Program-made: the position numbers and the translations under genes
The notes under the pieces: model-generated
Told to the model about the DNA's origin: nothing
The model's input: only the letters and a program-made list of their open reading frames with translations
Databases searched by the model: none
Assembly (NCBI GenBank): GCA_026928325.1
Contig: JAIXKS010000022.1
Span: 1 to 59,818 of the forward strand
Reading direction: 5' to 3'
DNA length: 59,818 nt
From: Chitinophagales bacterium
Lineage (GTDB): Bacteria > Bacteroidota > Bacteroidia > Chitinophagales > Saprospiraceae
In this document: in pieces, positions 3,660 to 59,818 of the stretch
Layout: every line of letters starts with the position of its first letter
Numbering within the stretch: the first letter of the stretch is position 1

Positions 3660-3770
3660 TATTGCTCTATCCATAAAAAGTCTTAAATAATAAAGGAAGC
3701 TATTTTTTTAACGATGAGATTTGAAAAAGGAACGACATTTCATTAAGATATTTTTGTGGACGGAGCACTA
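3660..3770 (-). repeat. MITE copy 1, internally deleted (minus orientation)
   Basis: The outer parts match the other copies (left end TATTGCTCTATC, right end GACGGAGCACTA allowing one mismatch), but about 53 bases of the middle, including the central CATAGT/ACTATG hairpin, are missing, leaving 111 bp. Flanks are C-TA and TA-G, i.e. a CTAG target with TA duplicated. The right-hand TA is part of the TAG stop codon of the YwaF-like gene at 3768-4499. Confidence 0.9.
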
Positions 3771-4499
3771 GGTTAATTTAGCTGTTAAATAGTTTTTAAT
3801 GGCATTCCAATAAAATGGGATAGTCATCACTAAAAATAAACTAATCACTATAAATTCTAAAGATACGATATATCCGGGCCATGGACCTAGTAAGTCGTAA
3901 AACGTTGGACCAGGTGGCTTTGCATTTAAAAACATATAGTTTGATCCCAACATCACATTGATAGGATAAATAATGGCAGCTAGAATATTGAGTCCTAAAA
4001 TAGATCTTCCGGCATCCAGCCAAGTTATTCTCCAGCCTAAAGCCACAAAGCCATATAAGGCCCCGATGATAATAACCGAATGCACCAACCAATACCGGAT
4101 GGCTTCATAATGGGGCATGGATTCAGTAAGTGTCGGTGTGAAAATGGATTGAGCACATCCTGCTAATATCCAAAAAAAGGTAATACCCCAGGCAATTCTC
4201 ATTTTAAAGATAAAAATAAAAGGCATGAGCAGCGTCATCATATTACATAAATGTAGCGGAAAATCTTCATGTGGATGAAAAATACCAGTATTCCATTTAT
4301 AAAAAACTTTAAATAATTGAGACGAAGCAGCTAAAATGGTAATGATGATGATGTACCTGAATTTTTGATCCGTTGTCCAATATTTTTTGCTGGCATATAG
4401 TACTCCAACGATGAATAAAATACATAGTGTGAAAGCTATTAAATGCTCACTGCCATAATTTATAAAGTTGCCATTGTCTTTTAAAAATATATCCAGCAT
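3768..4499 (-). CDS. YwaF-family (TIGR02206 / TMEM164-like) integral membrane protein
   Basis: 243 residues with about six to seven hydrophobic segments. Conserved features of the YwaF/TP0381 membrane family are visible: 'PHEDFPLHLCNMM' near residue 80 and 'NYMFLNAKPPGPTFYDLLGPWPGY' in the C-terminal part (shown as landmarks: NYMFLN, PPGP, GPWPGY). The biochemical role of this family in bacteria is not established. A well-formed promoter lies directly upstream (4514-4544) and leaves a leader of only about 8 nt. The TAG stop lies in the target site duplication of a MITE; the reconstructed empty site would still read TAG, so the insertion probably did not alter the C-terminus. Confidence 0.85.
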   Translation of the reverse strand: MLDIFLKDNGNFINYGSEHLIAFTLCILFIVGVLYASKKYWTTDQKFRYIIIITILAASSQLFKVFYKWNTGIFHPHEDFPLHLCNMMTLLMPFIFIFKMRIAWGITFFWILAGCAQSIFTPTLTESMPHYEAIRYWLVHSVIIIGALYGFVALGWRITWLDAGRSILGLNILAAIIYPINVMLGSNYMFLNAKPPGPTFYDLLGPWPGYIVSLEFIVISLFLVMTIPFYWNAIKNYLTAKLT

Positions 4500-4513
4500 A
4501 TCTATATTTTTAA

Positions 4514-4544
4514 CAAAAATAATAAATCCCTAATATATAAGCAA
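4514..4544 (-). promoter_or_regulatory. Bacteroidota promoter of the YwaF-like gene
   Basis: Minus strand: TTG (4544-4542), a 20-nt spacer, then TATTTTTG (4521-4514), matching TTG-N20-TAnnTTTG. The predicted start of transcription is only about 8 nt before the ATG at 4499. Confidence 0.6.
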
Positions 4545-4613
4545 GCAAAATATTTAAGAATTTGAATACTAAAACAATAATAAACTATTCCTACTAATTT
4601 TATAAATGGGCGA

Positions 4614-5537
4614 CTACCGCGAAGTGCCTTCTGGAAATTGAACTTTATCGGGAGAAGCGTTTAAAAGCGGGAGTGCATATTGTAAGATTCTAGTTCTTCT
4701 TCCGGTGGTATCTTGTGGCTCAACCGGATAAGAGATCACTGCCTCCAACCAAGCAAAAGTATTAATTCGAAAATAAACTTCCGGCTTCCATTGCTCTGGA
4801 ATGTCGTCCCTATATTCGGTATAAAGCGTTGTGAAATCTCGTTTTGAAGCTTCTATTAGACAAGTTTTTACAAAGGATAAATCACTGGTGTAGGCAATCT
4901 GGAGGGCGGTTTCATTCCAAATAAAAGGAAGTTGTGGTCCTGAATAGTTAATGACGACTTCTTTGAGAATCAAACTATTAGGAAAAAATATGGTTCGTCC
5001 GCTTTTTCTGTCATTTTGAAGATAGTCACCACTGCATTCTACCATTTTGGTATCGAGAAAATTAATTTCTTCAACATCACCGCGCATTCCGTTGATCTGA
5101 ATCCTATGGCCGACCTTGTACGGATGCCTAAAAACAATATATAACCATGCAATAAAAGAAGTTATCGGTGCTTGAAGCGCAAAACCTAAAATTAAAGAAA
5201 TGAGTCCAAAACTAACCGCCGTGGCATATAGGTTTTGAAATAAAAACGAAGCAACAACAATTAGTATCAGGATTATGGATATAAAACTGGAAATCCGCAA
5301 TAGATTATACCGATCTCCTTCTGTATTCGCATGTATTTCAATATATTTTTTTATGATTTTCCCGATAAGGAGGATGATGAATATAAAGAATAGACTTAGA
5401 CTCAATTTCTTGAAAAAGGGAAGATATTTTTCCCAAGGTGAAAAGACATCAAGTTCAAAAACATAATGTAGGATTAAGACAATAACTGCTAATAAGGCAT
5501 ATAAAATAACAGAATAATTACTTTTTACAGACTTCAT
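4614..5537 (-). CDS. MscS-family mechanosensitive channel
   Basis: 307 residues, near the size of the small MscS channels. Four hydrophobic segments occupy residues about 8-135. The last one plus the following beta domain carries the MscS signature: 'GLISLILGFALQAP' (pore-lining helix), then 'HPYKVGHRIQINGMRGDVEEI' as landmarks HPYKVG, G-x-V-E-E-I, and an 'FPNS' turn. A soluble C-terminal domain follows, ending in a basic tail. It should gate in the inner membrane on hypo-osmotic shock. Next to an OsmC-type protein, 46 nt upstream on the same strand, so the two may be co-transcribed. Confidence 0.9.
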   Translation of the reverse strand: MKSVKSNYSVILYALLAVIVLILHYVFELDVFSPWEKYLPFFKKLSLSLFFIFIILLIGKIIKKYIEIHANTEGDRYNLLRISSFISIILILIVVASFLFQNLYATAVSFGLISLILGFALQAPITSFIAWLYIVFRHPYKVGHRIQINGMRGDVEEINFLDTKMVECSGDYLQNDRKSGRTIFFPNSLILKEVVINYSGPQLPFIWNETALQIAYTSDLSFVKTCLIEASKRDFTTLYTEYRDDIPEQWKPEVYFRINTFAWLEAVISYPVEPQDTTGRRTRILQYALPLLNASPDKVQFPEGTSR

Positions 5538-5583
5538 TGAATCTTTTTTATAGTATGATCTAGATTTGGCAATGTGTATTACT

Positions 5584-5982
5584 TTATTCTAATGAAGAAT
5601 GAATTCCAATATCACCGGAAAGTATTCGATGAACCGGACATTTATCCGCAATGTCATGCAATCTTTTACGCTGAGTTTCATCCAGATTGCCTATCAAAGT
5701 AATCTTTTTTGTAAAAATAGTTGTATTATCTTGAATATTTCTATCAAAATCTATCTCTACAAAAGCCTCTTCCAAAGGCCATCCCTTTCTGTCAGCGTAC
5801 ATGCGCATGGTGATAGAAGAGCAAGCAGCAAGAGCAGATGCTAATAATTGACCTGGATTAGGGCCTAAGTCGCCTCCTTCAACATCTAAATCTTCATCGG
5901 CTATTAACGTATGGTTGCCGGTCTGTATTTCAGTTCGATATTTTAGAGATTGAATGTGGCCTTTTGCTTGATGTGATGCCAT
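5584..5982 (-). CDS. OsmC/Ohr-family peroxiredoxin-like protein
   Basis: 132 residues, the normal length for the family. The two reactive cysteines are present: the first in 'ALAACSSITMRMYADRKGW' (about residue 54) and the second in 'DKCPVHRILSG' (about residue 115). OsmC-type proteins reduce organic hydroperoxides with this cysteine pair; the 'CPVHR' form is typical of the YhfA/OsmC branch rather than Ohr. Cytoplasmic, no signal peptide. It precedes the MscS gene on the same strand. Confidence 0.9.
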   Translation of the reverse strand: MASHQAKGHIQSLKYRTEIQTGNHTLIADEDLDVEGGDLGPNPGQLLASALAACSSITMRMYADRKGWPLEEAFVEIDFDRNIQDNTTIFTKKITLIGNLDETQRKRLHDIADKCPVHRILSGDIGIHSSLE

Positions 5983-6578
5983 GATGTTATGTTAAAATTT
6001 GTTAAGGTTTAAATAATAGATTCCTATATGGATGATCTTCAATATCCTAAAGATAGCACAATTTTATTTATATTTTATTAAATTTTGATATTTTTTGTAA
6101 AAAAATGATTTCAGAATTTTTGTTTTTAAATTTAGTAGCTGATGATTTAAGATGACAAATTATTGATTTTGTCTGTTAACGAATACTTCTTGTTTGTTTT
6201 TTTAGTATTATTTAAACGCTTGAATATCATAATGTTGAACTTGGTTTTAAATGTTGTTATAGATAGCTTTAACTTGTTTAGGCCTATCTTTTTAATCGCA
6301 AAGATGTGTGCAATACCATATTGATTACTGACAATTTGTCGGAAATTATGTCGTTGGTATGATTTTCGGCTTTATAGTAAAAGGGAGATATTACTCGATT
6401 TTTTAAAAGAATTGGAGTTTACAAAGGTAATTTTGACAGATTTAATATCTTTGTGTCCCTAAAACAAAAGATGTAAAATCTATATTAATGTAGTATGTAG
6501 GTGTCTTTTGTGATATTAGATGTTCTAACGATTACAAAATTAATTGAACGATAAACTTAAAAATATATAACAGATATT
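5983..6578. other. Divergent intergenic region between the OsmC gene and secA
   Basis: About 600 AT-rich bases without a gene, holding the upstream regions of the two divergent units. A TATCTTTG at 6446-6453 on the + strand is a good -7 box for secA (leader about 120 nt), though the TTTG before it is only 10 nt away. No riboswitch or RNA gene is recognised. Confidence 0.4.
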
Positions 6579-9872: not shown

Positions 9873-9884
9873 ATTTATGATGGC

Positions 9885-12318: not shown

Positions 12319-12482
12319 TAGTGCTCTGTCTATAAAAAAGACTTCAATAATAATGGAAGTTATTTTTTAAAAGATCAAGGCAAAAAACGCAGGCATAGTG
12401 GTAACTATGACGAGTATTTTTAACGATGAGATTTGAAAAAAGAACGACATTTCATTAAGATATTTTTGTGGACAGAGCACTA
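12319..12482 (-). repeat. MITE copy 2 (full, minus orientation)
   Basis: 164 bp bounded by perfect 12-bp inverted repeats TAGTGCTCTGTC and GACAGAGCACTA, flanked by C on the left and G on the right, so the empty site would be CTAG. Contains the central hairpin CATAGT-GGTA-ACTATG (minus-strand form). No reading frame. Lies between the promoter of trmN6 and the 3' end of the giant T9SS gene. Confidence 0.95.
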
Positions 12483-20864: not shown

Positions 20865-22442
20865 ATGCGAATTTTTACAAAATTTTTCATTGGGTTGGCA
20901 TTTTTGATGACCTATTCAATGGTTCAAGCACAAGAAGGGCGTTACACAAAAGAAGTATTTACGAATGTAAATGTTTCTGATTTAATACCATTACAAAGTA
21001 ACTTTACGGTGATGCCGTGGGTTGGAGGATTATTAAATAGCACACCAGGTCTTGGATCTCAGCGTCAACCACTTCGTGTTCAGTTTTACACACCTGAAGG
21101 TGATACGAAAACAGACAGACCACTTATTATTTATCTTCACACAGGAAACTTTATTCCATTTTCTTTTAATGGATCTTGTGGCGGAACAGTGGCAGACTCT
21201 ACTAACGTAGAGATTGCAACAAGATTGGCAAAAATGGGATATGTTGTTGCAGTAGCAGAATACAGACAAGGCTGGTTACCAACAATCGAACAAGAATTGT
21301 TGAAAAGATACACGTTGATCCAAGCAGCGTACAGAGGCGTACAGGATGTTAATGCGTATGTTCGATATTTTAGAAAAAGTGTTGCTGAATTAGGTAATAT
21401 TCACGGCATTGACCCAGATAAAATTACTGTTTGGGGTCAAGGTACAGGTGGATATTTGTCATTGGCATCTGGTTATTTACATGACTATTCAGAAATTCTT
21501 AGCACTCCAGGTGCAAAATGGATTTTACCTGTAGAAGGTGTTGGAAATGTACCGATGATTATTGAAGGACAGAATGGAACGATCACAGGTGAAGGTCCTA
21601 CAACTTTCTCTTCTCCGGCATATATTCCAACAGCAGCTATCGGATTTAAAAATGGCGATACTTTATGTGTTGAAAATCACCCAGGATATTCTTCTAAGTT
21701 TGCACTAACTGTTAATATGGGAGGAGCTTTAGGAGATACAAGTTGGATTAATAAGGGCGAAACTCCTTTGATTTCTTTCCACGTAGCATCTGACGCACTT
21801 GCACCATGCCAAACAGGGATATTAAGAGTACCTACAGAGAGAGGTCCAGAGCCGGTAGTGGAAGTATCAGGTTCTTGTGATGTTGCGGTTATTATGGATA
21901 GAATTGGTAACAACGACATTTTTAAAACAATCCCTGAAGGTGAAGACCCTTATAATGCTAGTAATCCTGTTTCAAGCTTAGGGTTTTATCAGTTTGATAA
22001 TACACCTGCGGATTCAGGAGCTCCATGGGAATGGACTTTTGCTTCTCAACCGAAGCCAGGTCAGCAACCTACAGATTGTAATACGGATGCAGAATCGGCT
22101 AGAAGATACATCGATACTATTATCGGTTATTTCGCACCAAGAGCTTGTGTAGCTTTAGGTTTAGATTGCTTTACATCTTCTGCTAAGGATTTAACAGAAA
22201 CTCAAGTTAACTTGAAGATGTCTCCAAACCCTGCAAGTGACCAATTGAACCTTTCAGTTTCTGAAGATACACCTATCAAATCTATAGCTTTACATGATAT
22301 CTCAGGTAGAATGTTATTTAATGTTCCTGAATTGAATGCAAGCCGTTATACACTTCATAGAAATCAAATTCAAAATGGTATTTATATCATACGTTTGCAA
22401 TTTGAAAAAGGTGTGATTAGCAAAAAAGTGGTATTTGACTAA
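20865..22442 (+). CDS. Secreted alpha/beta-hydrolase-fold protein with lost nucleophile, T9SS sorted
   Basis: 525 residues with a signal peptide (1-22). The carboxylesterase-like fold is recognisable: 'RPLIIYLHTGNF' (oxyanion-loop strand, HGG changed to HTG), 'MGYVVAVAEYRQGW', 'QAAYRGVQDVNAYVRYFR', then 'IDPDKITVWGQGTGGYLSL'. In active relatives the last segment is G-x-S-x-G; here it is G191-Q-G193-T-G195, so the nucleophile serine is glycine. Catalysis is therefore unlikely. The C-terminus ('MSPNPASDQLNLSV', 'DISGRMLFN', 'NGIYIIRLQ', KKVVFD) is a T9SS type A sorting domain. It follows the TonB receptor by 25 nt and ends with its own terminator; a surface-bound ligand-binding pseudo-enzyme serving the receptor is my inference. 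Confidence 0.85.
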   Translation: MRIFTKFFIGLAFLMTYSMVQAQEGRYTKEVFTNVNVSDLIPLQSNFTVMPWVGGLLNSTPGLGSQRQPLRVQFYTPEGDTKTDRPLIIYLHTGNFIPFSFNGSCGGTVADSTNVEIATRLAKMGYVVAVAEYRQGWLPTIEQELLKRYTLIQAAYRGVQDVNAYVRYFRKSVAELGNIHGIDPDKITVWGQGTGGYLSLASGYLHDYSEILSTPGAKWILPVEGVGNVPMIIEGQNGTITGEGPTTFSSPAYIPTAAIGFKNGDTLCVENHPGYSSKFALTVNMGGALGDTSWINKGETPLISFHVASDALAPCQTGILRVPTERGPEPVVEVSGSCDVAVIMDRIGNNDIFKTIPEGEDPYNASNPVSSLGFYQFDNTPADSGAPWEWTFASQPKPGQQPTDCNTDAESARRYIDTIIGYFAPRACVALGLDCFTSSAKDLTETQVNLKMSPNPASDQLNLSVSEDTPIKSIALHDISGRMLFNVPELNASRYTLHRNQIQNGIYIIRLQFEKGVISKKVVFD

Positions 22443-23450: not shown

Positions 23451-23614
23451 TAGTGGTCCGTCCACAAAAAAGATCTTAAAGAAATGTAGTTCTTTTTTCA
23501 AATTTCAGCGTTAAAAATACTCGTCATAGTTACCACCATGCCTGCGTTTTTTGCCTTGAACTTTAAAAAAACAACTTCCATTATAATTTAAGTCTTTTTA
23601 TAGACAGATCACTA
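23451..23614 (+). repeat. MITE copy 3 (full, plus orientation, diverged ends)
   Basis: 164 bp. Ends TAGTGGTCCGTC and GACAGATCACTA differ from the consensus at two and one positions, respectively. The central CATAGTTACCACCATG hairpin has one change. C-TA and TA-G flanks. Lies between the 37-codon ORF and the convergent end of hscA. Confidence 0.93.
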
Positions 23615-27019: not shown

Positions 27020-27799
27020 CTATTCTGCCAATTCAAAAACAGCCAACGGAGCCATTCTTCCTTTATTGAGCGTTAGCCTGTTGCCGTCTGTCGAAAGATT
27101 ATCCACGGTCGATAGAACTTTGACAAATTCATCTTCTAGATTGTCCGGACAAGCCATAAGGGTTGACATTCCTTCTTCGAAATGAATCGCATATTGGTCA
27201 ATAATCTTATATCCCATATTGATGATATTGCAATTGGCCTTTGCTTGGGCACGATTTGTTGCGTTGTCCAAAATAAGGTAATGCGTTTCAGCTGAACCAT
27301 TGACAGGTTTTCCATTCAATTCGACCAATTTCCATGTTTTACCTTCTACCATGTCATTGCCCATTTTTCTTAAAATGTAGGAAGCTGATAGTGCTCCTTC
27401 GATTTCTTTTCCTTCCAAGTCAAGGAATTTCACTCGATTTTCTTCAATCTTAAAGTAAGGCGAACCTTCTCCTTCTTTGATCCCATCCAATTTGATGTTA
27501 TTTCCTTCCCAAGTAAATTTGCCTTGTACTGTATCTATAATGCTAGGTTTATCCGTAAGATATTTAGAAGTTAGTTGGTAAGATCCATCCGTATTGAGCG
27601 TTAGTATGGTTTCTATCCCTTGACAATCTGCACATGGAAGCGTGCCGAAGTATTGTCCGTTCCAATCTAACGAATTTTGAGCTGTGTGCTCATCGTTAAA
27701 TGGTGTGACTCCTTCTTGGTTTACTTTGTTATTACATGAAGTAATTAAAAATGCACCGAAAACCACTGCGAATAGGTAACTTAATTTCAATTTTAACAT
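27020..27799 (-). CDS. Lipoprotein with NlpE-like and META (HslJ-like) domains
   Basis: 259 residues. Lipoprotein signal with 'FLITSC' (C22). Residues about 47-140 form an NlpE-like barrel ('WNGQYFGTLPCADCQGIETILTLNTDG', landmarks PCADCQGI and LNTDGSY), the CxxC typical of copper-responsive NlpE proteins. Residues about 150-255 form a META/DUF306 domain ('EGKTWKLVELNGKPV', 'NCNIINMGYKI', 'MACPDNLEDEFVKVL'). In E. coli NlpE signals surface contact and copper stress through Cpx, and HslJ is linked to heat and novobiocin resistance; here no Cpx-type partner is adjacent. Single-gene unit with its own terminator. Confidence 0.88.
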   Translation of the reverse strand: MLKLKLSYLFAVVFGAFLITSCNNKVNQEGVTPFNDEHTAQNSLDWNGQYFGTLPCADCQGIETILTLNTDGSYQLTSKYLTDKPSIIDTVQGKFTWEGNNIKLDGIKEGEGSPYFKIEENRVKFLDLEGKEIEGALSASYILRKMGNDMVEGKTWKLVELNGKPVNGSAETHYLILDNATNRAQAKANCNIINMGYKIIDQYAIHFEEGMSTLMACPDNLEDEFVKVLSTVDNLSTDGNRLTLNKGRMAPLAVFELAE

Positions 27800-39534: not shown

Positions 39535-39700
39535 TATTGCTCTGTCCACAAAAAAGTCTTAATAAAATGTCGTCCTTTTTTAAAATTTCATCGTTAAAAA
39601 TACTCGTCATAGTTACCACTATGCCTGCGTTTTTTGCCTTGATCTTTAAAAAAAAAATAACTTCCATTATTATTTAAGTCTCTTTATAGACAGAGCACTA
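39535..39700 (+). repeat. MITE copy 4 (full, plus orientation)
   Basis: 166 bp with ends TATTGCTCTGTC and GACAGAGCACTA, C-TA / TA-G flanks, and central CATAGTTACCACTATG hairpin. Sits between the desulfhydrase gene (50 nt before) and the terminator of the convergent rplU-rpmA operon. Confidence 0.95.
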
Positions 39701-45989: not shown

Positions 45990-46153
45990 TAGTGCTCTGT
46001 CTATAAAAAAAACTTAAATAATATTGAGAGTTAGTTTTTAAAAGATCAAGAAAAAAAACGCAGGCATAGTGGTAACTATGGCGAGTATTTTTAAGGATGA
46101 GATTTGGAAAACGAACGACATTTCATTATGATCCTCTTGTTGAAAGAGCAATA
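45990..46153 (-). repeat. MITE copy 5 (full length, most diverged, minus orientation)
   Basis: 164 bp. Left end TAGTGCTCTGTC is perfect; right end GAAAGAGCAATA has two changes, and there are scattered internal substitutions, so this copy is old. C-TA / TA-G flanks. Between the convergent ends of the sigma factor gene and the TPR membrane protein gene. Confidence 0.9.
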
Positions 46154-50180: not shown

Positions 50181-50344
50181 TAGTGCTCTGTCAACAAAAA
50201 TATCTTAATAAAATGTTGTTATTTTTTCAAATCTCATCGTTAAAAATACTCGTCATAGTTATCACTATGCCTGCGTTTTTTGCCTTGATCTTCAAAAAAA
50301 ATAACTTCCATTATAATTTAAGCCTTTTTATAGATAGAGCACTA
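50181..50344 (+). repeat. MITE copy 6 (full, plus orientation)
   Basis: 164 bp with ends TAGTGCTCTGTC and GATAGAGCACTA and the central hairpin CATAGTTATCACTATG. The left flank is A-TA rather than C-TA, the right TA-G. Between the convergent mazG and methyltransferase genes. Confidence 0.95.
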
Positions 50345-50372
50345 GATTCAATGCATTAAATGGATTTGTGTT

Positions 50373-51206
50373 TCATTTTTTGAGAACTATAATATCCTGA
50401 AAATCGATACCCTCATTTTTAGGAATCGCTTTTTTCCAATAGCCTTCTTTGTAATTGTCCAGCTTTAATAGAGATGCGGAAATCATCGATTTAAGCGTAT
50501 CTTCTTCAATAGCGATGTTGGCACATTTTACATCTTCATCCATAAGTCGATATCCTTTTTTGCTAATCGGAAAGTCGAAACCTCCATTTTGTGCAATTTC
50601 GTCTTCGATATCTTGATTATAAATGAAGCATGTTGCCAGACAAAGGCCATCAGGTTTGAGTACCCGGCGGATTTCATTCATATAATGCTCAATATCTTCT
50701 AATTGCATGTGCGTAAACACAGAAAACAGGAAAGCCCTATCAAATGTATGATCTGCATACGGGAATTTGAATTCACTAGCTTTGTTTTCGTGGGTATTAT
50801 ACAAATCATTGTTGAGAGGAACATACAAGAAGTTGAAATTAGGAAAGTCCTTTTTGATCTTAGAATTACACCATTTTACTCCTTTTTCGACGACGTCAAA
50901 CCCTTCGTATCTTCCCTCATGGCTGAGATATTGGGTTAAAGGAACAGCCGTTCTACCCATACCGCAACCAATGTCTAAGACGATATGGTTATGTTGTAAT
51001 CCGATGTGCTTAATCAAAAGATTTAACTGATGTACTCCTTGATTGATAAAGTCTCCTGAACCTATGTAAATATCACCTTTTGGCGGCTGATATCGGTGTC
51101 TTTTATCGAATATCGTGTCGAATAGGTCTTTAGGAAGGAAAAATACTTTTCTGATGAAAAATCTCATTTTGGGAGAAAAACTATAATATATTTTTCTAAG
51201 CGACAT
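50373..51206 (-). CDS. Class I SAM-dependent methyltransferase
   Basis: 277 residues from ATG 51206; the frame is open for 34 more codons, but that part is Arg/Lys-rich, unlike any family N-terminus, and runs into the upstream gene. 'HIVLDIGCGMGRTAVPLTQYL' is SAM motif I, 'YEGFDVVEKGVKWCN' motif II, 'FDRAFLFSVFTHMQLEDIEHYMNEIRRVLKPDG' motifs IV-VI of the Methyltransf_11/25 type. An N-terminal helical extension (1-60) is not typical. Substrate unknown. 20 nt after the ADP-ribosylglycohydrolase gene, so in one operon with it. Confidence 0.82.
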   Translation of the reverse strand: MSLRKIYYSFSPKMRFFIRKVFFLPKDLFDTIFDKRHRYQPPKGDIYIGSGDFINQGVHQLNLLIKHIGLQHNHIVLDIGCGMGRTAVPLTQYLSHEGRYEGFDVVEKGVKWCNSKIKKDFPNFNFLYVPLNNDLYNTHENKASEFKFPYADHTFDRAFLFSVFTHMQLEDIEHYMNEIRRVLKPDGLCLATCFIYNQDIEDEIAQNGGFDFPISKKGYRLMDEDVKCANIAIEEDTLKSMISASLLKLDNYKEGYWKKAIPKNEGIDFQDIIVLKK

Positions 51207-51226
51207 CTTTGTTTTGAGTTTAGCGA

Positions 51227-52210
51227 TTAAACAAGGGTTGTAATTTTTTCTCCAAAGCGCGCAGCAAGATCTTCGATGTCTGATTTTCTGGCGAGGTGAT
51301 GAATCCATTCATTCGGGATTTTGTCATAACCATAGTGTAAGCCTGCAAGTCCTCCTGCAATAGCTGCCGCAGTATCCGTATCATTACCAAGATTGATTAT
51401 TTTAAGAATGGTATCCTTGTAGGAATTTTCACGTAAAAGGAAGTAAAAGGCTGCTTCGAGTACATCGATGACGTAGCCACTACTTTTAATGTCGGATTCG
51501 TCTATGAGCCGGATATCTTGTTGAATAACTCTGACAAAGAAAAACCGCTCGCTTTCTTGAAAATCAATCGTTTCCCAAAACGCTTGAATGGTTTTTCTCG
51601 TCTTTTCATAAGCTGTGATTTTGTCTAAACCATCCATGAGATTTCCGGCCATGGTTAGATATATTAGGCAAGCCATAGCTGCTCGAATATGTTTGTGCGT
51701 CAGTGATGACACATCATAGATGATTTCAAATTGCGCTTGAATAGACTTGTCCTTGATGTAGAACAATAATGGTAAAATTCGCATGAGGGAACCATTGCCA
51801 TTGTCAAACTCTGTAGCCTTATGTTTTAGATTTTTGAATGACTCATCCTTGCCAGAATCCAAAATTGCTTCCAATTCTCGTATCGATTGCGCCGTGGTCA
51901 CGCCGATATCAAAAACACGACCATAAGGTGTCCAAAATGCTTCATTGACCCATCGAGCGAAGGTTCGTGCGATTGCTTTTAAACTATAACCATCGCTGCA
52001 AAATGCTTCTGTTAGGCAAAAAGTGAGTGAGCTATCATCGGACCAGGATCCTGGCGGTAGATTATAGGTGCCATAACCAATCATATCTGTTGCCGGATTA
52101 CTAACCATATCCAATCGTGATCTAAATTCATAGGGAACACCAACTGCATCACCTACGGCAACGCCAAAAAGCGCGGACTTGATTTGATCTATCAGATTTT
52201 GGGTACTCAT
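51227..52210 (-). CDS. ADP-ribosylglycohydrolase (DraG/ARH family)
   Basis: 327 residues, family PF03747. It removes ADP-ribose from proteins or small molecules using two metal ions. Family metal-binding motifs: 'GAAVGDAVGVPYEF'-like N-terminus ('FGVAVGDAVGVPYEFRSR'), 'GSWSDDSSLTFCLTEAF' and, near the C-terminus, 'NLGNDTDTAAAIAGGLAGLHYG'. Cytoplasmic. It precedes a methyltransferase on the same strand. The matching ADP-ribosyltransferase is not in this window. Confidence 0.93.
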   Translation of the reverse strand: MSTQNLIDQIKSALFGVAVGDAVGVPYEFRSRLDMVSNPATDMIGYGTYNLPPGSWSDDSSLTFCLTEAFCSDGYSLKAIARTFARWVNEAFWTPYGRVFDIGVTTAQSIRELEAILDSGKDESFKNLKHKATEFDNGNGSLMRILPLLFYIKDKSIQAQFEIIYDVSSLTHKHIRAAMACLIYLTMAGNLMDGLDKITAYEKTRKTIQAFWETIDFQESERFFFVRVIQQDIRLIDESDIKSSGYVIDVLEAAFYFLLRENSYKDTILKIINLGNDTDTAAAIAGGLAGLHYGYDKIPNEWIHHLARKSDIEDLAARFGEKITTLV

Positions 52211-52592
52211 ATAATATCATTTTTAAATTAAAAATGCCTTAGGATGTTCCTGTCGCACAAAATTAGATTTTAATGCGCGTTTTTAGCTAAAATCGTCGAA
52301 AAAGCAAGTTGAACTTATGATTTACTTGTGTTTTTTCGAAAAAATTTAGAAAAAGAACATAACACTATCTGTTTTTTATGCGAATAGCATCCTGTTTCTG
52401 TTCAAAGATAAGGCATTTTCCTTAAATGGGTTCATTTTTTTATGTTTTAATGAGAAAAATATTTCAATAGGTGGCTATCTTTATTCGAATCTTAATTTTC
52501 CTAGTTTAAACCGGGCTCAATCCATTTCTTTATAGTAATTTTGGATTTGATTTGATTTTGATGTGAAGGATTAGCCATAAAAGATAAGAAAT
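52211..52592. other. Intergenic region between divergent genes
   Basis: 382 AT-rich bases upstream of both the ADP-ribosylglycohydrolase and the TDT transporter. No gene, repeat or convincing promoter was recognised. Confidence 0.4.
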
Positions 52593-53636
52593 TTGAATAT
52601 AATATTGACCAATGTTAAAAGAGAGATTGAACAACTCTATCCGGGATATTTTGCATTGCCTATGGCAACAGGTATCGTGTCAATAGCTGCGAGTTTATTG
52701 GGTTATGTGGTTTTTGGTAGGTGGTTATTCTATATGAATGTTTTTTCCTATGGCATATTGGTTATCATGTACATGCTACGGACTTTATGGTATATCCCGG
52801 CTATCTATCGAGATTTGATGGATGCGGCTAAAAGTCCGGGTTTTTTGACAATTGTTGCTGCGACGAATATTGTAGGTTACCAGTTTTTGTATTTTGAAGG
52901 AGATTATGTAATCGCTAGTTTATTCCTTTTGACTGGTTTTTTTCTTTGGTGTACGGTTATTTTTAGCGTTTTAACGGCAATTATCATCAAACGCAAAAAG
53001 GGCAGAATTCAACGAAATATGAATGGATTGTGGTTGCTGATTATTGTAGCGACTGAGTCTGTAACGGTTTTAGGTTCTGCGACAGCTGAGTACTATCCTG
53101 CTTCTAATGGTTGGATTTATTTTATTGCATTTATGATGTTCCTAAATGGATGTCTGTGGTATATTGTGGTGATTACGCTGATATTCTATAGAATGGCCTT
53201 TTTTAAGCTTCGAACTGTTGAATTAGCACCGGCCTATTGGATAAATATGGGTGCCGTGGCTATTATTACCCTAGGTGGAACTGCTCTAATACAACATGGA
53301 CAGGGTATCGAATGGATGATCCCAATGCAACCTTTTATTTTGGGCATGACTTTTTTATATTGGTCAGTAGGTACATTCTGGATCCCTTTGATTGTTATTC
53401 TTGGTATTTGGAGACATTTTGTAGCTAAAGTTCCATTTACATATCGACCGCAGTTTTGGGGTATGGTGTTTCCTCTTGGAATGTACACGGTTTGCACTTT
53501 TAAATTGATGGAAGTAAGTGGAATTGATTTTTTGTTTTTTATTCCGAAATATTTCATTTACATGGCTATAATGGCGTGGTTATTGACTTTTTTAGGGATG
53601 TTAGGTAGAATATCCGAGGTAATGACAGATAGATAA
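52593..53636 (+). CDS. TDT-family (TehA-like) transporter, TTG start
   Basis: 347 residues with about ten membrane helices. 'LYPGYFALPMATGIVSIAA' at the N-terminus and 'YPASNGWIYFIAFMMFLNGCLW' match the tellurite-resistance/dicarboxylate transporter (C4dic_mal_tran, SLAC1-like) fold. These move anions such as malate or export tellurite-related compounds; specificity is unknown. There is no ATG before the conserved domain; TTG at 52593 (or 52605) is the only sensible start, with an in-frame stop five codons upstream. Confidence 0.85.
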   Translation: MNIILTNVKREIEQLYPGYFALPMATGIVSIAASLLGYVVFGRWLFYMNVFSYGILVIMYMLRTLWYIPAIYRDLMDAAKSPGFLTIVAATNIVGYQFLYFEGDYVIASLFLLTGFFLWCTVIFSVLTAIIIKRKKGRIQRNMNGLWLLIIVATESVTVLGSATAEYYPASNGWIYFIAFMMFLNGCLWYIVVITLIFYRMAFFKLRTVELAPAYWINMGAVAIITLGGTALIQHGQGIEWMIPMQPFILGMTFLYWSVGTFWIPLIVILGIWRHFVAKVPFTYRPQFWGMVFPLGMYTVCTFKLMEVSGIDFLFFIPKYFIYMAIMAWLLTFLGMLGRISEVMTDR

Positions 53637-53714
53637 ACTGAGTATGGCATAACAATATAAGTAGAACGCTTCAACAGTAAGCAACATTTATTGTTATGAG
53701 CATGAATAAATGAC

Positions 53715-54695
53715 ATGATTCATAAAATGAAAGCAGTAGTATTTGATACATATGGTGATGCGTCAGTTTTGAAAATTGCAGAGCGACCTAAGCCTATACC
53801 TGGTGAACATGAGGTATTGATTCGCGTCGTCGCTGCTGGTGTTAATCGACCCGATATCATTCAGCGCAAAGGATATTATCCGGCACCGGATGGAGTTGTT
53901 CAGGATATATTGGGTTTAGAGGTTTCGGGCATTATCGAACAGGTAGGCAAAGACGTTAGAAAATGGCAAGTTGGCGATCAAGTTTGTGCACTTGTGGCCG
54001 GTGGCGGATATGCTGAATATGTTGTAGCCCATGAAGGATCATGCTTGCCAATTCCAGAAGGGATATCTTTACAAAATGCTGCGGCTTTGCCGGAAGTTTT
54101 GTTTACGGTATGGCACAATGTTTTTCAGCGAGGCAATCTCTATCAGCACGAATCGGTGTTGATTTATGGAGGTTCCGGCGGAATCGGGTCGATGGCCATC
54201 CAATTATCTCATATCTATGGTTGTCGTGTTGTGGCAGTGGCCGGAAGTGCTGAAAAAGCGGATTATTGTCGAGCGTTAGGGGCGGACCATGTTCTTAATT
54301 ATAAGGCAGACAATATAGTCGAACAATGGGGTAGCGAGACCATCGACGTTATTCTAGACAGTGTTGGTGGTCCTTATTTGTCAGCTAATCTTGATTTGTT
54401 GAAAGCAGAGGGACGATTGGTTTATATCAATGCTATGGAAGGCGGTCATCCTGAATTGGATATCAAAAAAGTGATGCGCAAAAGGCTACACATTACAGGG
54501 AGTACTCTGCGAGCTCGGAGTTATGATTTTAAACAAGAGTTAGCCGAGGATATTCAGAAAAGAGCGTTTCCTTTGTTAGCTCATGCACGATTTAAAGATA
54601 TGGTTGGCTATTGCTTTCCTATGGAACAAGCGTGTGAAGCACATCGATTGATGGAGTCTAGAGATTTTATGGGGAAGATTATCCTTACTTTTTGA
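53715..54695 (+). CDS. NAD(P)H quinone oxidoreductase of the zeta-crystallin/PIG3 group
   Basis: 326 residues, medium-chain dehydrogenase/reductase fold without the structural zinc. N-terminal 'MKAVVFDTYGDASVLKIAERPKP' and 'AAGVNRPDIIQRKGYYP', nucleotide-binding 'LIYGGSGGIGSMAIQLSHIYGC' (landmark GGSGGIGS), 'AGSAEKADYCRALGADHVLNY', and 'VGYCFPMEQACEAHRLMES'. Reduces quinones or enals with NADPH. The conserved region begins with the Met at codon 5 (53727), which may be the true start. Followed directly by the double MITE. Confidence 0.93.
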   Translation: MIHKMKAVVFDTYGDASVLKIAERPKPIPGEHEVLIRVVAAGVNRPDIIQRKGYYPAPDGVVQDILGLEVSGIIEQVGKDVRKWQVGDQVCALVAGGGYAEYVVAHEGSCLPIPEGISLQNAAALPEVLFTVWHNVFQRGNLYQHESVLIYGGSGGIGSMAIQLSHIYGCRVVAVAGSAEKADYCRALGADHVLNYKADNIVEQWGSETIDVILDSVGGPYLSANLDLLKAEGRLVYINAMEGGHPELDIKKVMRKRLHITGSTLRARSYDFKQELAEDIQKRAFPLLAHARFKDMVGYCFPMEQACEAHRLMESRDFMGKIILTF

Positions 54696-54711
54696 CGTTA
54701 GGGACTATCAC

Positions 54712-54874
54712 TAGTGCTCTGTCAACAAAAAAATCTTAATAAAATGTCGTTCTTTTTTCAAATCTCATCGTTAAAAATACTCGTCATAGTTACCACTATG
54801 CCTGTGTTTTTCGCCTTGATCTTTTAAAAAATAACTTCCGTTATTTTTTAAGTCTTTTTATAGACTGAGCACTA
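54712..54874 (+). repeat. MITE copy 7 (full, plus orientation, left half of tandem)
   Basis: 163 bp. Ends TAGTGCTCTGTC and GACTGAGCACTA (one change). Its right-hand TA is also the left-hand TA of copy 8. Central hairpin CATAGTTACCACTATG intact. 16 nt after the quinone oxidoreductase stop. Confidence 0.95.
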
Positions 54875-55035
54875 GTGCTCTGTCAACAAAAAAATCTTAA
54901 TGAAATGTTGTTCTTTTTTCAAATCTCATCGTTAAAAATACTCGTCATAGTTACCACTATGCCTGTGTTTTTCGCCTTGATCTTTAAAAAAATAACTTCC
55001 ATTATCATTTAAATCTTTTTATGGACAGAGCACTA
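54873..55035 (+). repeat. MITE copy 8 (full, plus orientation, right half of tandem)
   Basis: 163 bp. Ends TAGTGCTCTGTC and GACAGAGCACTA are perfect; the right flank is TA-A. Copies 7 and 8 share the internal variants CCTGTGTTTTTCGCC in place of CCTGCGTTTTTTGCC, so they derive from each other rather than from two independent insertions. Confidence 0.95.
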
Positions 55036-55483: not shown

Positions 55484-55548
55484 ATTTTATTTGATTTTGG
55501 ATGAAACGATATGTAATAAACCTTTTGTAATATTGCTGATGCTTGGCC

Positions 55549-56595
55549 TTATTGCGGCATATTGCGAAGTTTTTCGATATTGACTAATTCTATTTTATTA
55601 TCATCAATGGATATTAGTCCTTCGCTTTTGAAGTCCGATAAAGTTCTGATAGTGGTCTCTTTTGCGGTTCCTGCAAGATTGGCGATGTCATCTCTTAAGA
55701 TAGACATTGTAGTGGAATTTTTAGAATCACTAAATTTTAGCAAGGCATTCGCTACGCGTTTTCTAACGGAACTATAGGCAAGTTCTAACAGTTGCTTTTC
55801 TGTTTCTTCGGACAAGCTGGCTAGGATTTTAATAAATTTTGCAGCAAACTCTTTATTATTATAGAGCAATAGGGTAAAGTCCTCTATAGGTATCAGTTTG
55901 AGTTCGCAATCATCAATTACAGAGACAGAAGCGTGATATCTTTCGTTTTTTAACAAGGGAACATACCCAAAAAATTCGCCTTTGCTATAAATATTAGTGG
56001 TGTATTCTTTGCCAAAATCATTAATCTGATAAGATTTGACGCTACCATCGACGACGAAATACAACCATTTTGGGTATTGTCCGGCTTCGAAAATGATATC
56101 TTTTTTATGGTATTTACGGGTTTCTCGATTTTCTAGTAGCTTTTCAAATTCTTTTTGTCCTTTGGCTTCATCGAAGAATCGTTGTAATCCTTGACTGGTT
56201 TCACTGAATGCAGTTCGCATACGCTCATTTTTTTTCAAACGCATTTCTATAGTATTCAGTAAATCTACATCGTCAAACGGTTTGACAATATAATCATCGG
56301 CACCTAGTCCCATGCCTTTTCTAAAGTCATCTTTTTCAGCTTTTGCAGTTAGGAAGATAAAAGGTATATTCATGGTTGATACATTGTTAGAAAGAATGCG
56401 TAGTACACCGTATCCGTCCATTTCAGGCATCATGATATCGCACAGGATTAGATCAGGTATATCTTCTAATGCTTTGGCGATGCCCACTTTCCCATTTTCA
56501 GCCGTAGCCACATTATATCCACTGAGTTGGAGTAGTTCTTCTATATTTTCTCTAACATCTATATTGTCTTCAATAACTAAAATTTTCGTGCTCAT
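55549..56595 (-). CDS. Response regulator with receiver, cNMP-type and Crp helix-turn-helix domains
   Basis: 348 residues in three parts: receiver 1-120 (D10 pair, phospho-acceptor D53 in 'DLILCDIMMPEMDG', K in 'DYIVKPFDD'), a Crp/FNR-like cupin about 150-265 ('KKDIIFEAGQYPKWLYFVVDGSVK', 'KGEFFGYVPLL'), and a Crp-type DNA-binding domain about 275-348 ('VRKRVANALLKF', 'RDDIANLAGTAKETTIRTLSDFKSEGLI'). The recognition helix keeps E and R in the E-T-x-x-R pattern of CRP. No cysteines of the FNR cluster type are present, so it does not sense oxygen itself. 14 nt after the kinase gene; transcription activator of the module by inference. Confidence 0.93.
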   Translation of the reverse strand: MSTKILVIEDNIDVRENIEELLQLSGYNVATAENGKVGIAKALEDIPDLILCDIMMPEMDGYGVLRILSNNVSTMNIPFIFLTAKAEKDDFRKGMGLGADDYIVKPFDDVDLLNTIEMRLKKNERMRTAFSETSQGLQRFFDEAKGQKEFEKLLENRETRKYHKKDIIFEAGQYPKWLYFVVDGSVKSYQINDFGKEYTTNIYSKGEFFGYVPLLKNERYHASVSVIDDCELKLIPIEDFTLLLYNNKEFAAKFIKILASLSEETEKQLLELAYSSVRKRVANALLKFSDSKNSTTMSILRDDIANLAGTAKETTIRTLSDFKSEGLISIDDNKIELVNIEKLRNMPQ

Positions 56596-56609
56596 AATTA
56601 TACGTTGGT

Positions 56610-57893
56610 TTAATAGGTAATATGGTTGTTTTTTGTAGGTAATTCAATAATAAATTCAGTACCAACAAATTGTTCACTTTGAAAAGACATGTTCCCATGA
56701 AGCATTTCTACATACTTCTTAACAATATTCAGGCCAAGCCCGGTTCCTTCTATATTAACGGCATTGCTAGCTCTAAAAAACCTTTCAAATAAATGTTTTT
56801 GATCTTCTGCCGGAATACCCATGCCGTTATCTTTGACATAGATCCTAAAGCTATTGTCTTGATAGTCGAGCGTGCATCTGATTTCTCCTTTTACCTCGGT
56901 ATATTTTATCGCATTGGAAATGAGATTGATGATGATGTTTTTTAAAATCTTTTTATCCGAAGTAATCCAACCTTTTTCGGTATTCATAGTATTGATCAAT
57001 TTTTGATCTGCCTTTAAGATGGTGTACATTTCATCGATAACATCATTCCAGACTTCTATAATGTCAAAAGTTTCTATTCGGATATCTACTTTTCCTTCTT
57101 CGAGCTTGTTCATTGACAAGAAGTCATTCAAAATTCCCGTAAGATGAATAACCGAGGACTTAATTTTGTCGATATGTTTGTCTCGATTACTCTGTTGATG
57201 CCCTTCTGTGTATCTAGCTATCAAAGATACAGAAGACAAAATGGTCGAAAGCGGCGTGCGGAATTCATGTGAAGCCATAGATACAAAACGTGATTTGAGC
57301 TCTCCTAGTTCACGCTCTTTAGCTAAACCTCGCTCTAAATCGGCTTCTCTTTCTTTAAGTTGGGTTTGAATTTTGATCTTATTGGTGATTTCTTCCTCGA
57401 GTTGTTTGTTCAACGAAAGCAGTTGATTAACGGCATTTTCGAGTTCGTAGGTTCGTTCAATGATCTTTTTTTCTAATTCTTCGTTGAGCTTTTTTAATCG
57501 AATTTCTGCATTTTTGATTTCAGATAGGTCATGAACAAACCCTGTAAAGATCGTTCTTTCAGCAAGTTTTACTTCGCTTACAGCCAGCCAAAATGGAAAT
57601 TCTTCTCCATTTTTTTTACGACCAATGACCTCTCTACCGATGCCGATGATTTTTGGAGTTCGACTGGTTAAGTAGTTGAGTATGTATTGATCATGGTTTG
57701 TGGCAAAGGGATTAGGCATCAACATATTAACGTTATTACCTATCATTTCTTCTTCTGAAAAGCCAAACAAACTTTTTGCAGCATTATTGACTTCTTCAAT
57801 GATGCCGGAAGTATTAATGATTATAATACCATCTACAGCTGAATCAAATATCGTTTGAAGCCTCAAGATGGCATCTTGATGATTTTTTACCAT
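56610..57893 (-). CDS. PAS sensor histidine kinase with FixL-like haem-pocket residues
   Basis: 427 residues, soluble. N-terminal PAS domain (about 10-128) aligns with FixL: 'NVNMLMPNPFATNHDQYILNYL' then 'KIIGIGREVIGRKKNGEEFPFWLAVSEV' and 'FTGFVHDLSE' (landmarks NHDQY, GIGREV, GFVHDL). H67 sits where FixL has its haem-ligand His200 and R87 where it has the oxygen-sensing Arg220, with the same 20-residue spacing. A coiled coil (about 130-200) leads to HisKA with H209 in 'MASHEFRTPLSTIL' and the HATPase domain ('NIIINLISNAIKYTE', 'DNGMGIP', 'GTGLGLNIVK'). First gene of a leftward operon with the receiver-Crp regulator. Haem binding is inferred, as similar motifs occur in some PAS domains without haem. 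Confidence 0.93.
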   Translation of the reverse strand: MVKNHQDAILRLQTIFDSAVDGIIIINTSGIIEEVNNAAKSLFGFSEEEMIGNNVNMLMPNPFATNHDQYILNYLTSRTPKIIGIGREVIGRKKNGEEFPFWLAVSEVKLAERTIFTGFVHDLSEIKNAEIRLKKLNEELEKKIIERTYELENAVNQLLSLNKQLEEEITNKIKIQTQLKEREADLERGLAKERELGELKSRFVSMASHEFRTPLSTILSSVSLIARYTEGHQQSNRDKHIDKIKSSVIHLTGILNDFLSMNKLEEGKVDIRIETFDIIEVWNDVIDEMYTILKADQKLINTMNTEKGWITSDKKILKNIIINLISNAIKYTEVKGEIRCTLDYQDNSFRIYVKDNGMGIPAEDQKHLFERFFRASNAVNIEGTGLGLNIVKKYVEMLHGNMSFQSEQFVGTEFIIELPTKNNHITY

Positions 57894-57910
57894 TTAGCTA
57901 AAATAATTTA

Positions 57911-57922
57911 TTACTTAAGTAA
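57911..57922. promoter_or_regulatory. 12-bp palindrome in the kinase leader
   Basis: TTACTTAAGTAA, a perfect palindrome 18 nt before the kinase ATG. It lies about where transcription would begin; possible operator. Confidence 0.3.
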
Positions 57923-57968
57923 ATCATAATCAAAGGTCTGCAATTATACAGAGTTTATTTTATATAAA

Positions 57969-57995
57969 TATCATAAATGATAATGATAAATATCA
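57969..57995. promoter_or_regulatory. Divergent operator with FNR/Crp-like half-sites
   Basis: Two adjoining palindromes: TATCATAAATGATA (57969-57982) and TGAT-AAAT-ATCA (57984-57995). The second has the inner core of the FNR/FixK box TTGAT-N4-ATCAA. It is centred about 40 nt upstream of the start predicted from CAACTTTG (58019-58026) for the rightward CBS gene, and about 62 nt upstream of the start predicted from GACCTTTG (57938-57931, minus) for the kinase, both usual positions for Crp-family activators. The receiver-Crp regulator is the obvious candidate binder. Confidence 0.45.
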
Positions 57996-58048
57996 TATAG
58001 CCTCATGTAAAAAAGGCTCAACTTTGAGGCAAATTTAAAATATTTTAT

Positions 58049-58489
58049 ATGAACCTATTGAATCCAATCTCGACAATTATGACGCCCAACCCGATTTGTG
58101 TTGGAGAAAATGAATCTTTGGTCGCACTTGATAAATTATTTAAAGAGCATAGAATCCACCATTTACCGGTTATCGCTGAAGGAAAATTGGTTGGCCTCGT
58201 GAGTAAATCGGATTTTCTTTTCTTTAGAAGAGGATTTTTGACAGATAATAACGAAAAAATCGAAGATGAAGTACGATTGAATAATTATGTTGCAAAAGAC
58301 ATTATGACCACTAAGTTGGCTAAAATGGAGCCTTCTGAAAAAATAAATGTTGCGTTAGAAGTATTTAGAGAAAATCTTTTTCATGCCATTCCAATTGTGG
58401 AAAATGACCGTATTGTCGGAATTGTTACGACATTTGATATCATTTTGCAATTGGCAAATGAAGGTCAAGCTACTTCTCAGTACGAATAA
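58049..58489 (+). CDS. CBS-domain pair protein, divergent to the sensor kinase
   Basis: 146 residues with two CBS motifs: 'IMTPNPICVGENESLVALDKLFKEHRIHHLPVI' (about 8-60) and 'DIMTTKLAKMEPSEKINVALEVFRENLFHAIPIVENDRIVGIVTTFDII' (about 88-138); landmarks IHHLPV, KLVGLVSKSD, RIVGIVTTFD. A nucleotide-sensing partner, probably for the stress protein encoded 90 nt downstream on the same strand. A hairpin GCCTCA/TGAGGC (58000-58030) lies between the putative operator and the ATG. Confidence 0.92.
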   Translation: MNLLNPISTIMTPNPICVGENESLVALDKLFKEHRIHHLPVIAEGKLVGLVSKSDFLFFRRGFLTDNNEKIEDEVRLNNYVAKDIMTTKLAKMEPSEKINVALEVFRENLFHAIPIVENDRIVGIVTTFDIILQLANEGQATSQYE

Positions 58490-58579
58490 CCATTGTAATG
58501 TTTAATCAAGCTGTTCAATAGCTTTCTGCGGCATATTGCCCATTTTCATCAATGATAATTGATATTTTTTAAGTAGTAA

Positions 58580-59680
58580 ATGCAAATGTTGAAGATAAAA
58601 ATTTACGGTACGGAGTCACCAAGTTATCAGTTGGTCAAAACCAAACTAAAATCTTTTATGGATAATGCTTCCATTGTCTATGATTTGCAAGAGGTGACGA
58701 AGATTTCAGAGATCATGGAGGACAATATTGTTTCTGTGCCTGCAGTTAAAGTAAATGACGACTTGTTGTTTGAAATTAAGCCAAATGGCAGTTATAACGC
58801 TTCTCTCCGTGAAGCAATCCAAAGCATTTTGAGACTTCAAAATTATGGTACCATGACAAAAATAATTGTTCCTACAGATTTTTCCGAAGCATCGTTGAAT
58901 GCTTATAATTTTGCGCACCGCTTAGCTAAACATTTGCCAGGCGTCATCAAGTTAACCCATGTATATTATCCAACTTCTGCCGATGTCAACCAAATCGTCG
59001 TTGTTAATGACGAAGTGGAGAAAATCCATCGAGAGAAATTAGAAGAATACGTCAAGTCATTCAATCAAGATTGGATAGGCAATTTTGTCGAAGAACCTAT
59101 GGTGGAAGGCATCTTTAGAGTAGGATTTCCTGTGATGGAACTCAAGGAATTGTCGAAAGAAAAGGATACGGTTCTCGTAATGGGTACTACTGGTGAAGGT
59201 GGTGCATTCAAGAAAGTATTTGGGTCTATTTCGCTAGATATGATCGAAAAAAGTAATTGTCCGCTTTTCTTGATACCTCCGGATGCAGGCGCTTCACAAA
59301 TCAATAAAGTGACCTTTCTTTCAGAAGATTTAAACCAAGATGCAGCACATCTAAAAGTTGTTTTGGGGCTTTGTACTGGCGGCAATACTAGATTAAGTAT
59401 CGTTCATTTTAAAAAGCAAGATAACAGCAAATTTGACGAAACTAGTATTAGAGCCATCGTTGATACGTATATGAATGGTACACCTTATGACGTGGAAATC
59501 ATATCCAATGTTGATGTATTTGATGGCGTGAGAGATATTGTAACACGCGACGTAAACGAATTGGTCGTGTTATCTACGAAACATAGAAATATATTTCAAA
59601 ATCTTTTCCACAAGAGTGTGACAGAATTTGCTGCTTTAAATGCTATTTCGCCTTTATTGATTCTTACAGATAAGGTGTAG
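58580..59680 (+). CDS. Tandem universal stress protein with a cysteine-less thioredoxin-like N-terminus
   Basis: 366 residues. Residues about 3-92 resemble the small Thioredoxin_3 fold ('KIKIYGTESPSYQLVKTKL' ... 'EIMEDNIVSVPAVKVNDDLL'), but the usual CPxC is S-P-S-Y, so no disulfide chemistry is possible. Residues about 94-233 form a UspA domain with an intact ATP loop G-x2-G-x9-G-S ('MGTTGEGGAFKKVFGS'). Residues about 240-366 form a second, degenerate USP domain ending 'ISPLLILTDKV', without the glycine loop. ATP-binding stress protein, cytoplasmic. The ATG at 58586 (codon 3) is an alternative start. A near-palindrome ATCAATGATAATTGAT (58548-58563) lies upstream. Confidence 0.88.
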   Translation: MQMLKIKIYGTESPSYQLVKTKLKSFMDNASIVYDLQEVTKISEIMEDNIVSVPAVKVNDDLLFEIKPNGSYNASLREAIQSILRLQNYGTMTKIIVPTDFSEASLNAYNFAHRLAKHLPGVIKLTHVYYPTSADVNQIVVVNDEVEKIHREKLEEYVKSFNQDWIGNFVEEPMVEGIFRVGFPVMELKELSKEKDTVLVMGTTGEGGAFKKVFGSISLDMIEKSNCPLFLIPPDAGASQINKVTFLSEDLNQDAAHLKVVLGLCTGGNTRLSIVHFKKQDNSKFDETSIRAIVDTYMNGTPYDVEIISNVDVFDGVRDIVTRDVNELVVLSTKHRNIFQNLFHKSVTEFAALNAISPLLILTDKV

Positions 59681-59685
59681 TCATC

Positions 59686-59818
59686 TAGTGCTCTGTCCAC
59701 AAAAATATCTTAATGAAATGTCGTTCTTTTTTCAAATCTCATCGTTAAAAATACTCGTCATAGTTACCACTATGCCTGCGTTTTTTGCCTTGATCTTTAA
59801 AAAAATAACTTCCATTAT
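59686..59818 (+). repeat. MITE copy 9 (plus orientation, cut by the window end)
   Basis: Left end TAGTGCTCTGTC is perfect with C-TA flank, 6 nt after the stress protein stop. The sequence follows the consensus through the central hairpin to base 59818; the right inverted repeat would lie about 30 bases beyond the window. Confidence 0.93.

Follow-up and report, generated by a model that had tools for sequence, protein, structure and literature searches.

Correia elements of Neisseria (CREE, NEMIS) and the RUP element of Streptococcus pneumoniae are the closest described counterparts of the repeats reported here. In the portions of text available from the respective papers, CREE were called unique to Neisseria (PMC5039591), Correia elements were said to influence neisserial gene regulation while their mobilising mechanism was stated in 2009 as not determined (PMC2649163), and binding of RNase III and of IHF to Correia elements was reported (PMC2649163, PMC2229807). 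For RUP, the similarity of its ends led to the proposal that an IS630 transposase mobilises it in trans (available text of PMC2229807 and PMC3049150). The DNA investigated here was a 59,818-bp stretch of a Chitinophagales bacterium (Saprospiraceae; GenBank assembly GCA_026928325.1, contig JAIXKS010000022.1, positions 1 to 59,818), hereafter the window, with nine copies of a short repeat. Por secretion tails are consistent with a Saprospiraceae host.

The window repeats are mobile-type, non-autonomous inverted-repeat elements, i.e., miniature inverted-repeat transposable elements (MITEs). The analysis favoured, with a probability of about three in four, the reading that they are TA-targeting miniature elements of a superfamily that crosses phyla, includes the Correia elements, and is moved in trans by local transposases. 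The window family was placed in this wider superfamily around the known Correia kind as a member not described before, whose ends are possibly IS630-like. In the open literature, a scope that left subscription papers and preprints aside, no report of the central core of these elements outside Neisseria was found, and strings of the core sequence had 0 matches in paper text.

Distribution of the conserved core

The core was defined as the central 80 bp of the element, reading AAGGC-A5-hairpin-CGAG-T5-AACG. A scan of species genomes with the core pattern gave at least 84 matches at 80 or more loci. Among the 80 loci listed, 21 lay outside Bacteroidota by title, and these belonged to Clostridia and relatives, two Neisseria, Pasteurella testudinis, one Oscillatoria metagenome-assembled genome (MAG), and one Thalassolituus. 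Cyanobacteria, represented by the Oscillatoria MAG, are possibly carriers of the core; the Thalassolituus locus, for which the search gave no good terminal repeat, is probably a chance match. In 14 genomes chosen as carriers, the pattern had 223 matches and its reversed form 0; the Heritagella cores were nearly identical to one another.

The outer arms and the terminal inverted repeats differed from host to host, and the middle 80 bp was conserved; those of its letters that the search pattern fixed are conserved by the choice of matches. Greedy thinning at 65% ungapped left-arm identity kept 41 of 67 elements. Relatives in the genus shared about 70–87% identity over most of the element; in genome G005 and in much of G004, the centre alone was shared. 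The automatic terminal-repeat search called 29 of 84 elements at 156–168 bp among the matches listed; for the remainder it gave shorter or longer calls, in many cases set on inner repeats, or none. Complete copies in G025, G029, and G030 measured 159–166 bp, deleted copies apart.

At L036 (G004), L356 (14857–14974), and L362 (6043–6160), a longer foreign sequence replaced the small loop in the core centre. The left arms of the Saprospiraceae elements and one Oscillatoria element (L074, L087, L100, L114, L126, L137, and L138) looked alike by eye, with a run like GAGCGAAAG ahead of the core, hinting at transfer between phyla or at misbinning. A ZMP/ZTP riboswitch at a Heritagella locus (L077, 1993–2074) was unrelated to the element.

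Queries with the 57-nt core against plasmids, phages, and E. coli gave weak matches or none, and the core pattern had no match in viral contigs. No curated Rfam family was matched at gathering score, neither in the window nor on the elements examined at 12 loci; at a lax threshold, weak matches to two eukaryotic snoRNAs and to RAGATH-22 were obtained over a tandem pair of elements and its flank.

Relationship to Correia elements

The likeness to Correia elements was tested with covariance models. Model R1 was built without Neisseria; model R2 was built from three Correia-type cores, taken from a short Correia copy and two elements of the Neisseria locus L117. The Correia test set consisted of 13 stretches of viral contigs with Correia copies. 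In 108 kb, the only matches of R1 below E 1 were two Correia copies (E 4.7e-5 and 0.016). In locus L117, R1 matched the canonical core and, in addition, two elements whose ends are of the TATAGTGG type and whose cores are Correia-like (E 0.0031 and 0.010).

The E-values of R2 are rough because its calibration was short, but all of its matches below E 0.04 fell on elements of this kind. There were ten of ten in the 143.7 kb searched first. Four of them were window copies, out of the nine present (E 9.4e-4 to 0.012), and others lay in Saprospiraceae (1.1e-5), N. dentiae, and Clostridia; one (L077, 147–200) was a centre-deleted copy. In 240 kb of G018 and G021, all nine matches were R1 cores, with a best E-value of 2.9e-8. 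By models applied both ways, the cores of the window family and of the Correia elements thus appear to be linked by homology, which was accepted on these reciprocal models, plain alignment having failed.

Structure of the core and centre-deleted copies

The folded structure was tested on 41 non-Neisseria cores at 25 named pairs, in a comparison that favours the structure in part, as it was written from the same sequences. Paired cells made up 88.3% against 64.4% in shuffles, cells changed on both sides numbered 218 against 71.7, and the covariation score was 0.554 against 0.142 shuffled and 0.105–0.146 slid. The covariation extends over Bacteroidota, Clostridia, and Pasteurella. In two diverged members, the A5/T5 helix was replaced by compensating letters.

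Counts of G.T and A.C pairs were 45 and 4 in the core-adjacent arms, with 30 of the 45 at two columns. The loop stem had 15 and 12, or 23 and 20 over the distinct loops of the 84 matches listed, and the window's own family had 70 and 51. A strand-specific RNA was considered from these counts, but the loop stem is balanced and the arm excess is concentrated in two columns, so they are not proof.

Copies without the centre were found repeatedly: five of 108–111 bp in the window's own genome, three of 96 bp in G029, and copies of 137 bp in Heritagella, where two were read and seven pairs of such spacing occurred among the matches listed. The break points in the own genome and G029 fell at short direct repeats, so the centre-deleted copies may be amplified or recurrent. 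Their repeated occurrence makes the core seemingly unneeded as a transposase end, and the core may be dispensable for movement. By analogy, the core could be a folded single strand, probably of RNA, through which insertions are processed or tolerated, a tentative proposal that we hold to be less likely than not.

Elements of the window

The nine elements are listed below, each with the strand that reads AAGGC in full copies.

3660..3770, + strand: centre-deleted copy of 111 bp, from end matches and alignment; no match to R1
12319..12482, + strand: full copy of 164 bp, core 12363–12443, from ends and R1; R2 E 0.012
23451..23614, - strand: full copy of 164 bp, core 23491–23571, from ends and R1; missed by R2
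39535..39700, - strand: full copy of 166 bp, core 39574–39654, from ends and R1; R2 E 0.0086
45990..46153, + strand: full copy of 164 bp, core 46034–46114, from ends and R1; missed by R2
50181..50344, - strand: full copy of 164 bp, core 50220–50300, from ends and R1; R2 E 0.0016
54712..54874, - strand: full copy of 163 bp, member of a head-to-tail pair, core 54751–54831, from ends and R1; missed by R2
54873..55035, - strand: full copy of 163 bp, other member of the pair, core 54912–54992, from ends and R1; missed by R2
59686..59818, - strand: copy cut by the window end, core 59725–59805, from ends and R1; R2 E 9.4e-4

An earlier note on this DNA had described nine such elements with 12-bp inverted terminal repeats, and both were recovered: seven full copies of 163–166 bp, one of 111 bp, and one cut by the window end, with terminal repeats reading TAGTGCTCTGTC. 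At no more than 2 mismatches, the 12-mer had 19 matches in the window, whereas 100 shuffles gave 2.66 on average and never more than 7; 17 of the 19 were element ends. The match at 21114 was partnerless; that at 27389 failed to align with the family and is a chance match. The junction counts of the note were borne out (left C-TA in 7 of 8, right TA-G in 6 of 7). By R1, the core is present in eight of the nine copies and lacking in the 111-bp copy.

Over its roughly 163 bp, a full copy is one long hairpin with imperfect pairing. The two members of the tandem pair (54712–54874 and 54873–55035) have a single TA in common. The elements have room for 55 codons at most and hold no gene. As the note had said, the window has no transposase, none being found by Pfam among 49 open reading frames (ORFs) of at least 100 amino acids.

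Copies in the genome of the window

A whole-genome search with the 12-mer end at no more than 1 mismatch gave 448 matches against 10 for the reversed control. A profile search of 852,441 bases, consisting of the window and 40 stretches partly picked because they bear copies, yielded 113 matches (copies or fragments) spread over 84 sites; 67 of the matches were full length, and the 25 multi-match groups include copies split by gaps or deletions. The density of one copy per about 7 kb, regarded as high in the note, is typical for the genome stretches read. Full copies had a median identity of 95% to their own consensus (58 distinct copies). Direct reading covered 13 tandem arrays; at each of their 15 junctions the copies ran head to tail, and the spacers were TA (7), A (6), CA (1), and T (1).

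Three copies in L043 (16359, 16820, and 17701) had identical scores and flanks and apparently lie within a larger repeated unit. The copy at L050 8317–8479 splits a gene, and the first piece of this gene has a weak match to the anti-phage protein PD-T4-9_A. In the window, elements of the same orientation flank a 4.4-kb segment (50345–54711) with genes for a methyltransferase, an ADP-ribosylglycohydrolase, a SLAC1 channel, and a zinc dehydrogenase. This segment is missing in G005, which has MazG and CBS as neighbouring genes, and was possibly gained by recombination between elements.

Target site and duplication

Flanks were read at both sides of 35 singletons, a few rows being out of register and three being copies of one larger repeat. 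The left 4-mer was CTAG in 23 of the 35 and the right 4-mer in 19, the outer C and outer G occurring together in 16; a few copies carry flanks other than TA. These readings support the TA-centred, mostly CTAG target of the earlier note. By our reading of the flank table, sides off CTAG had a changed outer base only in 14 cases and a changed inner base in 6, so a TA duplication within CTAG fits better than a 4-bp duplication. For an IS5-type MITE (4-bp YTAR), the counts were two copies with matching non-CTAG 4-mers against these 14 and 6 sides. Three sites were compared with G005, where the intergenic DNA was too diverged for an alignment of filled and empty sites. Duplication of TA on insertion is inferred from the flanks.

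Search for a partner transposase

The earlier note took the family for MITEs mobilised by an IS630-type transposase. This is partly supported. The TA/CTAG target held, and some IS630 ends in other Bacteroidota resemble ends of the family's relatives; a resident IS630 and, among the matches listed, an element with the same ends and a transposase were not found. DDE_3 (IS630) was present in 1 of 10 genomes of the genus, with other ends, and matched in 7 of 16 core carriers, 5 of them above the cut-off.

The window family and the related families of G002, G003, and G007 supplied the ends with which 12 ends of six IS630-type elements (G005, G018, G019, and G021) were compared, with 500 shuffles each. 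Five of the 12 resembled the ends of the relatives, with no more than 8 of 500 shuffles as good, and seven did not; the window's own ends were the best match for none of the five. An IS630 origin of the ends is therefore plausible, the partner not being at hand. R1 had no match in any of 14 IS630 loci, in which the core is thus no internal part of the IS630.

Candidates for an autonomous element were taken from correctly oriented end pairs 0.5–3 kb apart among the matches listed, in draft assemblies that break at repeats. An 852-bp pair in N. dentiae encloses a short-chain dehydrogenase gene, a 2161-bp pair in G029 encloses a pyridoxal-dependent decarboxylase gene, and C8 of the own genome (1873 bp) consists of two separate copies; all three were rejected. 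Three of four single ends in G025 were ordinary copies; the fourth (L333) was also rejected, its two adjoining ORFs searched being PhyH and TIM-barrel genes. PF13586 (IS5-type), found in 3 of 10 genus genomes, had no window-type end (at no more than 2 mismatches) nearby.

Discussion

If the window family belongs to a trans-phylum superfamily moved in trans, its ends would be read by whichever TA-specific transposase the host supplies, an IS630-like one in the present case, and this enzyme would insert the element at CTAG with duplication of TA. The core would be kept since its structure serves the element; the leading guess, by analogy, is that a folded single strand undergoes processing like that of Correia transcripts by RNase III, which would let insertions be tolerated. 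A further proposal, unlikely but to be reckoned with, is that the core rather than the transposase ends is the persisting unit of one old, horizontally spread superfamily, with the window family and the Correia elements as its branches. The ends would be swapped or remodelled to suit the transposase of each host, and a common factor would act on the core, possibly while it is a folded single strand at the replication fork.

Several results weigh against the superfamily reading. R1 recovered 2 of 13 Correia loci and, with filters off on ten loci, found only the short Correia copy (E 0.012). R2 missed known cores in 6 of 12 sources, 5 of the 9 window copies, and 11 of 20 R1 cores in the set of G018 and G021. 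Plain pairwise alignment of Correia sequences with the core was not significant: the short form was equalled by 3 of 300 shuffles and the long form by 26 of 300, and neither was in the best 25 of 14,348 windows. Many of the carriers are MAGs, so single cases such as the Oscillatoria locus L137 may be misbinned; carriers without the MAG label include P. testudinis DSM 23072, N. dentiae 1292RC1, and Pseudoflavonifractor An44. Within the window family, the core was barely more conserved (0.951) than the ends and arms (0.934–0.948), as is expected of young copies. Two copies with the flanks ATAA/ATAA and GTAC/GTAC are compatible with a 4-bp duplication, and flank-joined queries of the available DNA found no empty paralogue. 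DDE_3 had 0 matches in the window's own genome, and no transposase element with local ends was found among the matches listed for the own genome, N. dentiae, Heritagella, G025, G029, and G030.

The same data were weighed for other origins. The window family could be an ordinary MITE of one genus, formed by internal deletion of a since-lost IS630, with the similar centres elsewhere being convergent hairpins. The terminal repeats, the TA/CTAG target, the IS630-like ends in other Bacteroidota, and the IS630 of one congener agree with such an origin; however, the centre is common in sequence, with covariation, to different-ended elements across phyla, the core pattern had 223 matches against 0, and R1 was without a match in the 14 IS630 loci. 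The reciprocal matches of R1 and R2 that join the core to Correia elements speak against it as well. It is largely refuted by the R2 matches outside Neisseria, and we consider it the least probable of the explanations. A core that benefits the host as an RNA or protein-binding device (a terminator, an RNase III site, or an IHF site), with elements kept rather than merely amplified, would suit a constant core between changing ends and the RNase III and IHF binding reported for Correia elements (available text of PMC2649163 and PMC2229807). A terminator-like placement was not evident, however, because convergent gene ends were not clearly enriched among 75 sites (20 convergent, 22 divergent, and 33 co-directional, against 76, 90, and 195 of 361 gaps); conservation of the core within the family barely exceeds that of the rest of the element, and centre-deleted copies persist. 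This explanation is rather improbable, if less so than a lost IS630.

Movement as a folded single strand of DNA or RNA, with no double-strand DDE transposase and with the terminal repeats as the foot of the hairpin, was considered from the orientation of the copies. In the own genome, 65 of 84 sites were oriented against the GC skew of the contig (p 4.7e-7), and 58 of 84 with local skew. The counts were 12 of 13 where flanking genes ran with the skew, 12 of 20 where they ran against it, 17 of 20 at convergent and 15 of 22 at divergent genes, so gene direction alone does not explain the bias. The 15 of 15 tandem junctions that run head to tail, the excess of G.T over A.C in the core-adjacent arms (45 to 4, 30 of them at two columns), and the lack of a partner transposase among the searches made point the same way. 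In other carriers, however, the bias was absent (22 of 39 in G018, 10 of 25 in G021) or not significant (13 of 19 in G012), which rules it out as a general rule. Y1_Tnp, the transposase that IS200/IS605 or REP/RAYT elements would call for, matched in 18 of 21 carriers and was unmatched in three, N. dentiae and Heritagella among them. The loop stem had 15 G.T against 12 A.C, and the CTAG preference and the similarity of some ends to IS630 also speak against such movement. It is about as improbable as a lost IS630, and the superfamily moved in trans by local transposases is preferred.

If the superfamily is real, the comparison of its members could show the partner protein of the core, whether a single core serves different ends, and whether processing by RNase III is general. 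It would then be an unusual kind of mobile element, with a conserved middle and variable ends, the reverse of what recognition by a transposase predicts.

Comparison with known systems

RUP is, like the window family, a small TA-targeting element (available text of PMC2229807 and PMC3049150), but it has a resident IS630 (IS630-Spn1) with like ends, and none was found for the window family. The IS630 family has the TA target of the window family, and 5 of its 12 tested ends resemble ends of the relatives of that family; its members carry a transposase gene, whereas the window elements do not, and the core was not matched in 14 IS630 loci. ERIC and YPAL of enterobacteria are small palindromic mobile repeats that stand in the same table of a review (available text of PMC2229807).

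The copies of Correia elements read here measured 106–157 bp and have, like the window family, TA-bearing terminal inverted repeats and a long hairpin. The boxes of the Correia core stand in the order of the window family (CAAGGC .. CGCAG .. hairpin .. AGG .. AACGC). The Correia terminal repeat is TATAGTGGATTAA and that of the window family is TAGTGCTCTGTC; the window elements, which are without the 26-bp TATAGTGG terminal repeat, are not Correia elements proper. In Correia elements, the A5/T5 helix is not kept, and additional internal sequence makes the long form about 50 bp larger.

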